A stretch of DNA of 64,000 nucleotides, taken from contig NZ_LT629771.1 of assembly GCF_900105175.1 (NCBI RefSeq), positions 2,232,001 to 2,296,000 on the forward strand, read 5' to 3'. The notes beneath the pieces are model-generated. The model saw nothing but the letters and a program-made list of their open reading frames with translations, was not told where the DNA came from and made no database searches. A program made the translations under genes and the position numbers. Position 1 is the first letter of the stretch; each line of letters starts with the position of its first letter. Source of the stretch: Jiangella sp. DSM 45060. Lineage in GTDB: Bacteria; Actinomycetota; Actinomycetes; Jiangellales; Jiangellaceae. Positions 33,971 through 39,070 of the stretch are shown piece after piece.

Positions 33971-34888
33971 GTGGAGTACATCGACATCGGCGGGTCGGGG
34001 CTGCGCGGCTCGGCCGTCGCGCTCGGCTGCATGCGCATCGACCAGTTGCCCGAGGGCGAGGTCGCGAGCCTCGTCGGCGCCGCCGCCGACGCCGGCATCA
34101 CGATGTTCGACCACGCCGACATCTACGGCGGCGGCCGCTGCGAGGAGGTGTTCGGCGCGGCGCTGGCGCAGACCGGCCTGCGGCGCGAGGACATCGTCGT
34201 CCAGACGAAGTGCGGCATCCGCGACGGTTTCTTCGACTTCTCAGCCGAGCACATCCGCACGTCCGTCGAGGGGTCGCTGCGCCGCCTGGGCACCGACTAC
34301 GTCGACCTGCTGCTCCTGCACCGCCCGGACACCCTGATGGAGCCCGACGAGGTCGCGGCGGCCTTCGACGACCTCGTGACGGCGGGCAAGGTGCGCCACG
34401 TCGGGGTCAGCAACCAGAACCCGGCCCAGCTGGAGCTGCTGCGCGCCCACGTCCGGCAGCCGCTGATCGCGAACCAGCTGCAGTTCGGCCTCGCGCACAC
34501 CGCGCTGGTCGACTCCGGCCTCAACGTCAACACCGGCTTCGACGCCGGTGTGGTCCGCGACGGCGGCGCGCTGGAGTACTGCCGGCTGCACGGCATCACC
34601 ATCCAGCCGTGGTCGGTGCTGCAGCACGGCCACATCGCCGGGACGTTCCTCACCGACCCCGGCTTCCGCGAGCTGAACGACGCGCTGGCGGGCGTCGCCG
34701 CCGAGCACGGCACCACGCCGGGCACCATCGCCGTCGCGTGGATCCTGCGCCACCCGGCCCGCATGCAGCCGGTCGTCGGCACGACGAAGCCGGCCCGGGT
34801 CGCCGAACTGGCCCGCGCGGCGCACATCGAGCTCGACCGCGAGACCTGGTACGCGCTCTACCGGGCGGCGGGCAACCGGCTCCCCTGA
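33971..34888 (+). CDS. Aldo/keto reductase (YdhF-like)
   Basis: 305 residues, a TIM-barrel NADPH-dependent oxidoreductase. The catalytic tetrad can be placed: Asp and Tyr in DHADIYGGG, Lys in VQTKCGIRDG and His in LLLLHRPDTL. The C-terminal cofactor site is VVGTTKPARV. The GTG at 33971 is 6 bases after TAGGCT (33959-33964), so the message is probably leaderless. Substrate unknown. It lies between aroB and aroQ, perhaps as an insertion in that block. Confidence 0.92.
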   Translation: MEYIDIGGSGLRGSAVALGCMRIDQLPEGEVASLVGAAADAGITMFDHADIYGGGRCEEVFGAALAQTGLRREDIVVQTKCGIRDGFFDFSAEHIRTSVEGSLRRLGTDYVDLLLLHRPDTLMEPDEVAAAFDDLVTAGKVRHVGVSNQNPAQLELLRAHVRQPLIANQLQFGLAHTALVDSGLNVNTGFDAGVVRDGGALEYCRLHGITIQPWSVLQHGHIAGTFLTDPGFRELNDALAGVAAEHGTTPGTIAVAWILRHPARMQPVVGTTKPARVAELARAAHIELDRETWYALYRAAGNRLP

Positions 34889-34908
34889 GGCACCGATAGG
34901 GTCGGGCC

Positions 34909-35343
34909 GTGACGACGCGCGTACTGGTGCTCAACGGTCCCAACCTCGGTCGCCTGGGGTCCCGCGAGCCTGACGTCTACGGCAGCACGACGTTCGCCGG
35001 GCTGGTGGAGCGGTGCCGCAAGACCGCCGCCGGTCTCGGCCTCGACGCCGACGTGCGGCAGACCGACGACGAGGCGGAACTGGTGCACTGGCTGCACGAG
35101 GCCGCCGAAGCGGGCACGCCGGTCGTGCTCAACCCGGCCGCGTTCACGCACTACTCCTACGCGCTGCGCGACGCGTGCGCGCAGCTGCGGGCGCCGCTGA
35201 TCGAGGTGCACATCTCGAACCCGGCGGCACGCGAGGAGTTCCGCCACACCAGCGTCGTTGCCTCCGTCGCCACCGGCACGGTCGCCGGGTTCGGGCTGGG
35301 CTCGTACGACCTCGCGCTGCGCGCCGTCGCCGACCTCGTCTGA
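34909..35343 (+). CDS. aroQ: 3-dehydroquinate dehydratase, type II
   Basis: 144 residues, the length of the dodecameric type II enzyme, which forms 3-dehydroshikimate. Signatures: [18 protein letters not shown] with the catalytic Tyr, [15 protein letters not shown] and [17 protein letters not shown] with the catalytic His. The GTG 34909 follows TAGGGT (34897-34902) by 6 bases, so it can be transcribed as a leaderless message apart from the aldo/keto reductase. It ends 3 bases from a convergent gene. Confidence 0.96.
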
Positions 35344-35346
35344 GCG

Positions 35347-35976
35347 TCACATCCGGTCGACGATCTCCTTCGCCCGCCGCAGGTCCAGCTCGGGGGCGTT
35401 CTCGAGCAGCAGCTTGATCGCCTGGATCTTCTTGCCCTGAGCGACCAGCGCCTGCACCCGCCCCATCACCTCGTCGGTCGGGTCGGCAGCCGGGCCGGCG
35501 ACGTCGAGCGCGGCGACGACGCCGGACTCCTCCATGCGCTCGACGGTGTCCTTGGCCTGCTTGAGACCGAGGCCGGTGTGCTCGCGCAGCACCTTGATGG
35601 CCTGGATCTTCTTGCCCTGCGCGACCAGCTGCTGGATGTGCGCCATCGCCTCGGGCGTGACGGCGTCGGCGGACGGCCGCGCCGGCGCGGCGGGCGCGGG
35701 CAGCCCGGCCTGCAGCCGATCGACGTACTCCTTGGCGTCCTTGAGTCCGAAGCCGGTCCGCTCGCGGACCAGCTTGACGGCGGGGATCAGCCTGCCCTCG
35801 GCGAGCAGGGCGCGGACGGCGTCGTCGAGGTCCGGGCGGTCCAGGACGGCCGCCGGGGCGGAGCTCGCAGGCGGCGTCGCGCCCGCCGCGTCGACGCGGG
35901 CCCGCCGCAGGACGATGCCGAACCCGAGCACCAGCGCGGCACCGAACGCGATGACGACGATCAGCCAGAGGTCCAC
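35347..35976 (-). CDS. Membrane-anchored protein with three L7/L12 C-terminal-like repeats
   Basis: 209 residues. One N-terminal TM helix (LWLIVVIAFGAALVLGFGI), a short linker, then three copies of a ~40-residue helical hairpin like the C-terminal domain of ribosomal protein L7/L12. Each has the core LxxxG+xIxAIKxLRExTGLGLKxAKExV: about residues 52-90 (AVKLVRERTGFGLKDAKEYV), 112-150 (AIKVLREHTGLGLKQAKDTV) and 170-209 (AIKLLLENAPELDLRRAKEI). In the ribosome this surface recruits translation GTPases; its role on a membrane is unknown. The GTG lies 6 bases after TACGGT (minus strand 35988-35983), so it is leaderless. Confidence 0.85.
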   Translation of the reverse strand: MDLWLIVVIAFGAALVLGFGIVLRRARVDAAGATPPASSAPAAVLDRPDLDDAVRALLAEGRLIPAVKLVRERTGFGLKDAKEYVDRLQAGLPAPAAPARPSADAVTPEAMAHIQQLVAQGKKIQAIKVLREHTGLGLKQAKDTVERMEESGVVAALDVAGPAADPTDEVMGRVQALVAQGKKIQAIKLLLENAPELDLRRAKEIVDRM

Positions 35977-35992
35977 GCGACGACCGTACCGG

Positions 35993-36439
35993 TCAGATGG
36001 CGACGAACCCGAGATCCGCGGCCGCAGCGCGCTGGGCGGGATCGTGCGAGGCGAAACCGACCCGCTCGCCGGAGCGGACCAGCGGCCGCGCGGCGAGGTC
36101 GGCGATGGCCAGGTGCATGGCGTCGAACGCGCGGATGCCGAACCGGCGCACCAGCACCCGGGCGGTGTTCTCGGTGTCGAGGGCGTCGGCCCGGATCAGC
36201 GCGATGGGCCCGGTGGGGGAGACCTCCTCGTACAGCTTGGCCAGCAGCGTGTCGACGTCGCCGAGGCGGCGGGTGCGCGCGGCCCGGACCAGCGCCGACG
36301 ACGCCTCGAGCAGCGCCAGCGTGGACGTGACGAGCAGCGTGCGGCCCTCGATCAGCCCGCGCGCGACCGCGTGGCGCGGCTCGTCGGCGAGGTAGGAGCG
36401 CACCAGCACCGAGGAGTCGACGTAGGTGAGCATGCTCAT
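35993..36439 (-). CDS. vapC: VapC-type PIN-domain toxin
   Basis: 148 residues of the PIN fold, probably an endoribonuclease. The acidic residues are in place: D8 (TYVDSSVLV), E45 (LLEASSALV) and D106 (RAFDAMHLAIADL). The ATG overlaps the antitoxin stop by four bases, the normal order of a vapBC module (antitoxin first). The target RNA is unknown, though tRNA or rRNA is typical of the family. The module lies between two L7/L12-repeat membrane proteins. Confidence 0.9.
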   Translation of the reverse strand: MSMLTYVDSSVLVRSYLADEPRHAVARGLIEGRTLLVTSTLALLEASSALVRAARTRRLGDVDTLLAKLYEEVSPTGPIALIRADALDTENTARVLVRRFGIRAFDAMHLAIADLAARPLVRSGERVGFASHDPAQRAAAADLGFVAI

Positions 36440-36741
36440 CGGCCGTCGGCCCAGAGCTCGTCGACGACCGGGCCGACGCCCTCGGTGTCCTTCAGCGCGC
36501 GGACGAACTGCGCAGGCGGGACGGACGGCGCCGGGCTCTCGACGAGGACGCCGAGGTCGCGGGCCTTCTCGCGCAGCTCGAGGCGGCGCACGTCGATGTC
36601 GTCGTCGGACGGGGGAGGCGGCGGCGCGGCGGCGGAGAGCACCTTGTTGGCCAGCGCGTTGATGGAGACGCCTTCACGCTGGGCGCGCGCGGCCAGCCGC
36701 CGGTGGAGATCGTCGGGGATCCGCAGCAGCAACTGACGCAT
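36436..36741 (-). CDS. vapB: VapB-type ribbon-helix-helix antitoxin
   Basis: 101 residues. The N-terminus (MRQLLLRIPDDLHRRLAARA, then QREGVSINALANKVL) is a ribbon-helix-helix DNA-binding domain of the HicB/Arc-like kind. A proline-rich hinge follows, and an acidic C-terminal tail probably wraps the VapC toxin. The ATG 36741 coincides with the expected transcription start behind TATCAT, so the message is leaderless. The inverted repeat at 36752-36774 is the likely autoregulatory operator. Confidence 0.88.
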   Translation of the reverse strand: MRQLLLRIPDDLHRRLAARAQREGVSINALANKVLSAAAPPPPPSDDDIDVRRLELREKARDLGVLVESPAPSVPPAQFVRALKDTEGVGPVVDELWADGR

Positions 36742-36747
36742 GCCCGG

Positions 36748-36774
36748 ATGATATCACCGGCACGTGTCGTGATA
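36748..36774 (-). promoter_or_regulatory. vapBC promoter and operator
   Basis: On the minus strand TATCAT (36753-36748) is a -10 ending 6 bases before the vapB ATG, with TTGCTA as a possible -35. TATCAC (36752-36757) and GTGATA (36769-36774) are inverted arms with CACGTG at the centre, overlapping the -10. Repression by the VapBC complex is expected. Confidence 0.6.
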
Positions 36775-36781
36775 GCAAGGG

Positions 36782-37261
36782 TCAGAGCGCGTCGAGGAAC
36801 CGCCGGGCGTCGCGGCTGTTCATGCCGGTGCGCTCGCGCAGCAGCCTGATGGCGGCCGTGCGGCGCAGGCGGTCCTGGCTGACCAGCCGGCGCAGCGTGG
36901 CCAGCAGTTCAGCGTCGATGGCGCCGCGGCGGCGGGCCGGGGTGGCCGGCGCGGTGCTGTCGGGCTCGGGCTCCGGGAACACCTGGCCCGCCTGAAGCGC
37001 GTACACGATGGCGGTAGCCTGCGGGTGTGGGAGGTGTGCCCGCTTCTGCAGGTTTTTGACGGCTTGGTCGGTATTGCCGCGTGAGGCGACATCGCGAACC
37101 TCGTCCTGCAACTCGCGGGGGAGACGCACACCGGGGGGCGGCGTCAAGGACGAAGACAAGGTGCGTGCGGTGGTTGTCTCGGGCCCACGCCGAATGACGA
37201 GAAAGCTCATGACGAGGGCCAGGATGACGATGACGACAAGGCCTAGGATGAGCATGATCAT
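36782..37261 (-). CDS. Membrane-anchored protein with L7/L12-like hairpins (second)
   Basis: 159 residues. One N-terminal TM helix (LILGLVVIVILALVMSFLVI), then two degenerate hairpins similar to those of the gene at 35347: about residues 50-90 (GNTDQAVKNLQKRAHL) and 118-159 (LRRLVSQDRLRRTAAIRLL, RERTGMNSRDARRFLDAL). The ATG (37261) lies by the intergenic region shared with pepP. It is probably a diverged relative of the three-repeat protein on the other side of vapBC. Function unknown. Confidence 0.72.
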   Translation of the reverse strand: MIMLILGLVVIVILALVMSFLVIRRGPETTTARTLSSSLTPPPGVRLPRELQDEVRDVASRGNTDQAVKNLQKRAHLPHPQATAIVYALQAGQVFPEPEPDSTAPATPARRRGAIDAELLATLRRLVSQDRLRRTAAIRLLRERTGMNSRDARRFLDAL

Positions 37262-37359
37262 GAGCGTAGTCGAGCACTGATCAACTGCGAAGCACCCGTC
37301 TCAATTATTGAAATACGACAGCATCGATGCAGGTCAGAGTGGATGGAGAGGGACACAAG

Positions 37360-38469
37360 ATGGCGGAGACCCACGCGAGACGACGCGCCGAACTGGCTCG
37401 GAAGCTGGTTGATGACAAGCTCGACGCGGCGCTAGTCACAAGCCTGGTCAACGTCCGCTATCTCACCGGCCTCGACAGCAGTAACGCGGCATTGCTCCTG
37501 ACCTCGGACGGTTCGGCCGTGCTCGCCACGGATAGCCGTTATTCTACGGCCGCGAAGGCCGTCGCAGAAGACGTCGAGCTGGTGGTCGAACGGGGTGTCG
37601 CGACGTCCCTCGCCACGCGTGCGGCGAAGGCCGGGGGGAGTCTACGGCTGGGCGTCGAGGAACAGGCCGTCACCCTCGAGCTGTGGGAGTCGATGCGTGC
37701 GGCGCTCGACGCCGAGGCGGGCACGGTCGAGACCGTCCACCTCGGCCGGGCGGTCGAGCAGCTGCGCGCCGTCAAGGACGAGGACGAGCTGGGCCTGCTG
37801 GCGCAGGCGTGCGCCATCTCCTGCCGGGCGCTGGAGGACCTCTGGGCCGCGGGCGGGTTCGCCGGGAGGACGGAGAAGGAGATCGCACGCGACCTCGAGT
37901 GGCGCATGTTCGGCCACGGCGCCGACGCCGTCGCGTTCGAGACCATCGTCGCGACCGGCCCCAACAGCGCCGTCCCGCACCACCGGCCGACCGAGCGCGT
38001 CGTCGAGCGCGGCGACCTGCTGAAGATCGACTTCGGCGCCGCCTACCGCGGCTACCACGCCGACTGCACCCGCACCTCCGTCGTCGGGGCCGAGCCGCAG
38101 GACTGGCAGCGCGAGATCTACGACCTCGTCGCCGCCGCCCAGCAGGCCGGCGTCGACACCGTCGCCGTCGGCGCCGAGTGCATGTCCGTCGACCACGCCA
38201 GCCGTGCGATCATCGACGACGCCGGGTACAAGGAGAACTTCGGGCACGGCACCGGGCACGGCGTCGGCCTCGAGGTGCACGAGGCGCCGACGCTCGGTTA
38301 CTCGGCGGCGGGTACACTGGCCGATCGCATGGCTGTGACCGTCGAGCCCGGGATCTACCTGCCCGGCCGCGGCGGCGTCCGCATCGAGGACACGCTGGCG
38401 GTTCGAGCCTCCGGCGCATCCGAACTGTTCACGCCCACCACCAAGGACCTGCTGATCCTGGACGCCTGA
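37360..38469 (+). CDS. pepP: Xaa-Pro aminopeptidase/dipeptidase (M24 family)
   Basis: 369 residues. A creatinase-like N-terminal domain precedes the pita-bread metalloprotease fold. Metal ligands: two Asp in [16 protein letters not shown], His in [14 protein letters not shown], Glu in [11 protein letters not shown] and Glu in [11 protein letters not shown]. It cleaves N-terminal residues next to proline. The ATG at 37360 has an AGAGGG ribosome site; the ATG at 37327 would add 11 residues. The upstream divergent gap is AT-rich and holds the small palindrome TCAATTATTGA (37301-37311). Position next to efp matches Rv2535c (pepQ). Confidence 0.93.
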
Positions 38470-38509
38470 CGCGGCCGGGACCCCGAGACGACAGAAGGCA
38501 TCGAACGAC

Positions 38510-39070
38510 GTGGCGACGACCAACGACCTCAAGAACGGCATCGTGCTCAACCTCGACGGGCAACTGTGGAGCGTGGTGGAGTTCCAGCACGTCAAGCCCG
38601 GCAAGGGTGGCGCCTTCGTGCGGACGAAGCTGAAGAACGTCCTCTCCGGCAAGGTGGTCGACAAGACCTTCAACGCGGGCGTCAAGGTCGAGACCGCCAA
38701 CGTCGACCGCCGCGAGATGACCTACCTCTACCGCGACGCCGACGACTTCGTGTTCATGGACACCCAGAGCTACGAGCAGACGCACGTCTCCGCCGCCGTC
38801 GTCGGCGACGCCGCGAACTTCATGCTCGAGAACCAGGACGCCACGGTCGGCCTGCACGACGGCACCCCGCTGTTCGTCGAGCTCCCGGCGTCGGTCGTGC
38901 TCACCATCGAGTACACCGAGCCGGGCCTGCAGGGCGACCGCTCCACCGGCGGCAACAAGCCGGCCCGGCTCGAGACCGGCTACGAGGTGCAGGTGCCGCT
39001 GTTCATCACCAGTGGCGAGAGGGTCAAGGTCGACACCCGCGACGGTTCGTACCTCGGCCGCGCCGGCTGA
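38510..39070 (+). CDS. efp: Elongation factor P
   Basis: 186 residues with three beta-barrel domains. It relieves ribosomes stalled at polyproline. The tip loop is [15 protein letters not shown] with Lys32 at the position that is modified in some phyla; no modification gene is seen in the window. The C-terminal signature is [23 protein letters not shown] start at 38510 with an AGAAGG-type site. It lies 40 bases after pepP and 12 before nusB. Confidence 0.97.

Follow-up and report, generated by a model that had tools for sequence, protein, structure and literature searches.

Known L12-like proteins and the Jiangella pair

The C-terminal domain (CTD) of the ribosomal stalk protein bL12 carries, in helices 4 and 5, a hairpin that is described in the available text of PMC6753160 as the conserved positively charged site for the binding of IF2, EF-Tu, EF-G, and RF3. 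Relatives of this domain occur outside the ribosome: a full-domain L12/ClpS insertion is described in bacterial conflict proteins (PMC7159879, available sections), and bL12 domains are found in phage proteins (PMC6375957, available sections). The accessible text of a 2023 review of extra-ribosomal functions treats bL12 only as a stalk and autoregulatory protein, and the terms "membrane-anchored" and "inner membrane" do not occur in it (PMC10931766). Here, we describe two genes, P1 and P2, in a stretch of 64,000 nucleotides from Jiangella sp. DSM 45060 (NZ_LT629771.1, positions 2,232,001 to 2,296,000; hereafter, the window). Judging by sequence, they encode paralogous proteins with one N-terminal membrane helix, followed by three (P1) or two (P2) short units that contain a bL12-type hairpin. 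The reading we favor, with a probability of about one half, is that both are membrane-tethered multivalent docking tails for a protein partner. A literature search, with most subscription journals outside it, found no functional description of membrane-anchored or non-ribosomal L12-hairpin proteins, in agreement with the first-pass annotation of the window, which had known of none.

The likeness of the pair to the bL12 stalk CTD (PF00542, TIGR00855) lies in the sequence of the helix 4–helix 5 hairpin, in the charged hairpin surface, and in the flexible tether; unlike bL12, P1 and P2 have neither predicted beta strands, nor the second half of the CTD, nor a match to the bL12 N-terminal domain, and instead have a membrane helix and repeated units. 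The model NF005269/PRK06771 ("hypothetical protein," 97 positions) aligns at positions 1–94 with residues 1–89 of P1, membrane segment included; however, P1 has three units and scores 81.8 bits as a whole protein, below the cut-off of 90, and P2 scores 12.9 bits. No paper was found under the name PRK06771. Proteins from Streptomyces plasmids resemble the pair in that a membrane helix precedes a unit of the same sequence type and in that the match to ribosomal L12 is confined to the hairpin; they differ in having a single unit, a coiled-coil-like spacer, and other neighbors (partition genes in NZ_CP108357). One of them is named "ribosomal protein L7/L12" (WP_329391534.1); small membrane-helix proteins with one L12 hairpin can be automatically filed under this name (at least one record). 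The phage proteins share bL12-derived sequence in other protein contexts, but the available part of the paper makes no mention of membrane-anchored repeats, and one phage protein is reported there in ribosome fractions (PMC6375957).

Architecture of P1

The two genes and their parts are as follows (coordinates in the window).

35347–35976, minus strand: P1, 209 amino acids, GTG start, one membrane helix and three L12-hairpin units
35905–35976, minus strand: P1 N-terminal membrane helix (residues 1–24), then RRAR; AlphaFold2 helix 3–31, low confidence
35707–35832, minus strand: P1 unit 1 (residues 49–90); AlphaFold2 helices 47–59, 63–74, 78–89; 19.1 bits with the ribosomal L12 model
35524–35652, minus strand: P1 unit 2 (residues 109–151), the copy nearest L12; 30.9 bits with the ribosomal L12 model
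35350–35472, minus strand: P1 unit 3 (residues 169–209), degraded hairpin; AlphaFold2 helices 166–179, 183–193, 199–208; 9.4 bits with the ribosomal L12 model
36782–37261, minus strand: P2, 159 amino acids, one membrane helix and two diverged units, conserved paralogue
37190–37261, minus strand: P2 membrane helix (residues 1–24); AlphaFold2 helix 2–23
36992–37117, minus strand: P2 unit 1 (residues 49–90), from the alignment; AlphaFold2 helices 49–60, 64–75, 79–90
36788–36913, minus strand: P2 unit 2 (residues 117–158), from the alignment; AlphaFold2 helices 117–129, 131–145, 149–158; hhalign to the unit profile, probability 95.5

P1 matches the Pfam family Ribosomal_L12 (PF00542) at 65.7 bits (E 4.8e-18), over the gathering cut-off of 25.9, and the TIGR00855 equivalog at 57.0 bits, below the cut-off of 84.4. 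We also built a model from the CTDs of 30 actinobacterial ribosomal L12s, including that of the genome itself (the ribosomal L12 model). P1 scores 60.7 bits with it in total over three domains, and none of 2000 shuffles of the tail reaches this value (best, 9.8). The membrane-anchored L12-hairpin repeats with one transmembrane helix that the first-pass annotation had noticed are hence real and above chance by both the shuffles and the Pfam match. Its three well-kept copies are all present (copy 1, AVKLVRERTGFGLKDAK; copy 2, AIKVLREHTGLGLKQAK; copy 3, AIKLLLENAPELDLRRAK), but only the first two are well kept, while the third is degraded (19.1, 30.9, and 9.4 bits, respectively). Unit 2 scores 86.3 bits with the unit profile introduced below, which includes this unit. 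Copy 3 is better preserved in P1 of some relatives, e.g., L062, L063, and L066 (loci and contigs of other genomes are denoted by L with a number).

Among 32 units from 11 P1 sequences, basic residues are seen at position 70 (Lys, 31/32), position 84 (Lys, 29/32), and, more weakly, position 73 (Arg, 25/32), and a hydrophobic residue occupies positions 66, 69, and 80 in all 32. Positions 66–84 follow what we take to be the E. coli L12 numbering, and the identity of the contact residues is likewise our assumption. The unit hairpins have a net charge of +2 to +6, compared to +2 for the hairpin of the genome's own L12; the whole P1 tail is near neutral (+1).

Some other assignments were considered. 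Up to E 1, neither protein has a match to a UBA or EF-Ts family of Pfam, and an EF-Ts/UBA-like origin of the TGxGL motif was rejected on these grounds; a role in anti-phage defense was rejected as well, PADLOC yielding no match up to E 1. The effector-associated domain EAD11 matches both proteins weakly (E 0.036 and 0.065) and does not reach its cut-off. Six PHROGs families match P1 at E < 0.01, every one of them of unknown function.

P2, a diverged paralogue

P2 is not seen by models of ribosomal L12: it has no match to Ribosomal_L12 (PF00542) or TIGR00855 up to E 1, and yields -0.0 bits with the ribosomal L12 model, 103 of 2000 shuffles being as good. The unit profile combines the P1 copies with relatives found in plasmids of Streptomyces and Streptantibioticus, in a Fusobacterium, in a phage, and in a viral contig, but contains no P2 row; P2 scores 15.0 bits with it, and none of 2000 shuffles scores as high (best, 6.2). 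The two degenerate copies reported earlier for P2 are thus recovered as two diverged copies, by the unit profile and not by the ribosomal model. Profile–profile alignment by hhalign covers the membrane helix and two units of P2 and P1 with probability 97.4 (E 1e-11); by sequence comparison, P1 and P2 are paralogues.

The two units are clearer in P2 orthologues from two sister genera (L075–L080; E 6e-11 to 7e-8, at a set size of 1000); the remaining orthologues match the unit profile more weakly (E 7e-7 to 0.011, same set size), and in those of L073 and L074 it detects a single unit. Unit 2 abuts the stop codon in all 11 aligned relatives. P2 departs from the L12 pattern in both units: unit 1 lacks the TGLGLK turn, and unit 2 retains basic residues, but position 80 is replaced by Ser, Thr, Asn, Gly, Val, or Ala. 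The cytoplasmic part of P2, as predicted, has a net charge of +8.

Predicted fold of the units

All three matches in P1 cover positions 10–36 only, of 67 in the ribosomal L12 model, whereas nine ribosomal L12s taken as a control match positions 1–67 at 101–115 bits. Seven other unit proteins also match this model over approximately positions 10–36 only (outer limits 5–40; 16–34 bits), and the unit pair of locus L244, described below, is not detected by it. The second half of the L12 CTD consists of a strand, a helix, and a strand. The linkers between the P1 units are just 17–18 residues long and hence leave no room for this half. AlphaFold2, supplied with 7–8 close relatives, predicts three helices per unit and no strand in either protein, with pLDDT mostly 75–91 in the P1 units, 51–86 in the P2 units (lower, 51–76, in unit 2), and low confidence in the linkers.

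The units are accordingly modeled, i.e., predicted, as one extra helix plus the bL12 helix 4–5 hairpin, without beta strands. For the first-pass annotation, a predicted fold unlike that of the L7/L12 CTD would refute its reading; the lack of predicted strands and the missing second half count against that reading in part. In the Jiangella pair, the hairpin is seen to exist on its own, as a module that can be repeated and that does without the remainder of the L12 domain. The lowest Foldseek E values are 0.76 (P1) and 0.49 (P2); L12 is not among the matches listed, which is uninformative, and a tetratricopeptide repeat (TPR) or homeodomain reading was rejected at these values.

Distribution and selection

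P2 is present in 20 of the 22 genomes of the family, the genome studied included, and the two genomes without it are 75% and 81% complete; none was found in the other 295 genomes of the phylum sample, for most of which only 12 candidates were scored. Seven named relatives with P2 at 81–96% identity are Jiangella species. Across the loci of 19 relatives, P2 is found in 19/19 (in L080 interrupted by a stretch of N), the vapBC toxin–antitoxin genes in 17/19 (missing in L073 and L074), and P1 in 10/19. At this locus, P1 was found only in Jiangella; it is absent from the Jiangella locus L072 and from eight loci of other genera; vapBC is present without P1 in L072 and L075–L080. Searched elsewhere in the family genomes, P1 retrieves P2 itself and short open reading frames (ORFs); the two checked, L051 and L052 from two other genera of the family, were rejected as ribosomal L12, matching the full model at 115 and 112 bits. 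P1 of one Jiangella (L070, 5700–6185, minus strand) has two units rather than three; hence, the number of units varies within the genus.

The dN/dS ratios were estimated by simple counting between the window and eight Jiangella relatives (8 of the 10 relatives with P1; for pepQ, the L065 row was excluded owing to an upstream stop). The ratio is 0.09–0.19 for P2, similar to 0.06–0.19 for aroQ and 0.07–0.32 for efp; 0.03–0.27 for vapC; 0 to 0.22 for vapB; and 0.43–0.64 for P1. By these ratios, purifying selection acts on P2 as it does on the neighboring housekeeping genes. Therefore, the protein earlier called degenerate is the one most firmly held, while the one with the good L12 copies is fast-evolving and lineage-specific. 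Within P1, identity pooled over nine relatives is 73–81% in the units, 83% in the membrane helix, and 40–66% in the linkers, one of which has a dN/dS of 1.38 (same nine relatives).

Related unit proteins in other genomes

Proteins in which the unit follows a membrane helix or a coiled coil are encoded on Streptomyces and Streptantibioticus plasmids, and also in at least five other genomes of the phylum, hand-picked among the matches listed. Among these five, inspection by eye suggests an N-terminal hydrophobic helix in L240, L243, and L244 and only a coiled coil in L241 and L242. In the layout that recurs, one or two units come after a membrane helix or coiled coil at the N-terminus. Locus L244 (3429–4477, minus strand) encodes two membrane-helix proteins in tandem, one with a single unit and the other with two, close to ssb and the ribosomal protein L9 gene; no vapBC match was found near this pair.

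Further unit proteins are one from Fusobacterium vincentii, whose two units lie ahead of hydrophobic segments (L206, 3974–5131, plus strand), from a record labeled as a plasmid yet 2.1 Mb long and so perhaps a mislabeled chromosome; a small protein of a Stenotrophomonas phage, with one unit; and a cysteine-containing protein with one well-kept unit from viral metagenome contigs (L178 and L179, 2761–3225, plus strand).

Possible function of the pair

In the favored reading, P1 and P2 would be paralogous single-pass inner-membrane proteins whose tails, three (P1) or two (P2) small three-helix units on flexible linkers, face the cytoplasm. The orientation is suggested by the Arg pair after the membrane helix, under the positive-inside rule. 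The membrane helix would anchor the tail, the fast-evolving linkers would supply reach, and the conserved positively charged faces of the hairpins would bind a protein partner, several units providing avidity. P2 may be the older, constrained component, with P1 having arisen within the genus as an expansion richer in units. A membrane helix followed by units that are better conserved than their linkers is in keeping with such a docking tail. P2 is also the conserved gene on which a partner could be sought.

Several observations weigh against this reading. The P1 units are not strongly constrained themselves (dN/dS 0.46–0.53 over nine relatives), and the higher dN/dS of P1 would also fit a weakly constrained gene. 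The AlphaFold2 models, made from 7–8 close relatives, have a pTM of 0.29 (P1) and 0.37 (P2), and so do not predict the arrangement of the units. The best VIA-align Z scores, 7.6/6.3, a level common for helical models, fall on small helical parts, chiefly of one eukaryotic large-ribosomal-subunit chain. Finally, no shared gene neighborhood is seen for the wider family at five further unit loci, where 20 picked ORFs (two of them the L244 unit genes) include neighbors of the SSB, ribosomal L9, thioesterase, tRNA synthetase, PaaX, HTH, and FtsX families.

The pair might instead mimic L12 proper, the units binding the G domains of IF2, EF-Tu, EF-G, RF3, or LepA and so holding these factors or ribosomes at the membrane, an explanation that we consider unlikely. 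The P1 units do retain K70, K84, R73, and the hydrophobic positions 66, 69, and 80 of the bL12 hairpin, although such patch residues could be retained for folding; no beta strands are predicted, so that the hairpin would sit on another scaffold; and the adjacency of efp adds nothing. In the available part of the phage study, bL12-domain proteins are reported to retain factor-contact residues, and peptides of one such protein were found in E. coli ribosomes, but a tagged phage bL12 protein was not recoverable with ribosomes (PMC6375957). A translation GTPase may be the partner of P1, with the same low probability. In P2, the member under constraint, the L12 pattern is lost at position 80 and in the TGLGLK turn, which argues against GTPase capture as the function of the pair; the docking-tail reading is preferred for this reason. 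Less likely still is the wider proposal of a bacterial family of membrane-tethered mini-stalks, in which bL12-derived hairpins on three-helix units would capture, at the inner membrane, translation GTPases or ribosomes; P1 would be a three-armed example. If the partner were indeed a translation GTPase, the recruiting surface of the stalk would have been reused at the membrane.

Self-association, in which the units would bind one another and cluster P1 with P2 or a membrane partner without an outside ligand, appears improbable. It would suit paralogues with the same unit in one putative operon (see below), as well as the second tandem pair in L244; however, the low pTM values, which come from monomer predictions, give no confident packing of unit on unit.

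The genes between P2 and P1 are as follows.

36436–36741, minus strand: VapB-like ribbon-helix-helix antitoxin gene; PF05534 at 34.1 bits (cut-off 21), PF22513 at 26.9 bits (just below the cut-off of 27)
35993–36439, minus strand: VapC-like PIN-domain toxin gene; PF01850 at 40.4 bits

Both unit genes are where the first-pass annotation had found them, on the minus strand and flanking the PIN toxin and ribbon-helix-helix antitoxin genes. P2, vapB, vapC, and P1 all point away from pepQ–efp and are convergent with aroQ. P2 and vapB are separated by 40 nt, the toxin gene overlaps the antitoxin gene by 4 nt, and 16 nt lie between vapC and P1; because of this short spacing, the sequence suggests a single P2–vapB–vapC–P1 transcript, i.e., a putative operon. 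No sigma-70-type promoter site was found in 35300–37400, and no RNA element at the gathering threshold in 34800–38600. The VapBC pair looks intact from its sequence, the acidic residues of what we take to be the PIN pattern being present in VapC by inspection.

That P1 and P2 would be a working part of this module, e.g., a membrane anchor for the antitoxin or toxin, is very improbable. The presence of vapBC beside P2 in 17/19 relatives' loci, the spacing suggestive of co-transcription, and purifying selection on both toxin–antitoxin genes speak for it. At the same time, L073 and L074 keep P2 without vapBC, L072 and L075–L080 have vapBC without an adjacent P1, and the family VapB and VapC models find nothing near nine other loci carrying unit genes, so that the partnership with vapBC proposed in the first-pass annotation is not supported by co-occurrence. 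As the VapBC pair is of long standing at this site and subject to selection there, a regulatory link with P1/P2 inside the family is possible.

Least probable of all, membrane-bound helix-turn-helix DNA-binding tails would draw on the hairpin being a helix-turn-helix, on a reported likeness between the L12 motif and DNA-binding proteins, on weak matches of P1 (MerR_1, E 0.049; FtsK_gamma, E 0.12) and P2 (double homeodomain 6e8c, E 0.49), and on the +8 charge of P2, but all three matches are below threshold, P1 exceeds the Pfam cut-off for L12 but for no DNA-binding family, and its whole tail is near neutral.

The pepQ–efp region

37360–38469, plus strand: pepQ (M24 peptidase), divergent from P2
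38510–39070, plus strand: efp (elongation factor P), behind pepQ; NF001810 at 260.8 bits

The start of pepQ is probably ATG 37360 and not the listed 37327, which is 11 codons too early, since the relative L065 has a stop upstream of that Met.

In a search with pepQ, 43 of 60 genomes of the class matched, and loci were taken from the best 30, of which four belong to the family, the genome's own included. In 26/26 loci outside the family, efp lies downstream of pepQ, in 25 within 150 nt and in one, a partial match, at 1320; in the same loci, P1, P2, vapB, and vapC have no match at E 1e-5 in a flank of up to 1.5 kb (shorter in a few). The link to efp is therefore a general property of the region, and the adjacency, read in the first-pass annotation as a hint of a translation-related role, is uninformative, reflecting an inherited pepQ–efp block.

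In two mycobacterial-looking loci (L167 and L170), the slot upstream of pepQ on the opposite strand encodes a protein with four hydrophobic segments. By its position, we take it to be LucB/Rv2536, assuming the M. tuberculosis gene order. P2 was rejected as a LucB orthologue on architecture, having one membrane helix as opposed to four in LucB, which also lacks the units; judging from L167 and L170, LucB would be a positional analogue of P2, a membrane-protein gene opposite and upstream of pepQ–efp, and not a homologue. LucB (Rv2536/MSMEG_3032) is described in the available text of PMC9882608 as a subunit of the Mce1 lipid transporter. The slot opposite and upstream of pepQ–efp (36782–37360 in the window) contains unrelated membrane-protein genes in different actinomycetes, and in several other pepQ loci, aroQ ends less than 100 nt from pepQ.

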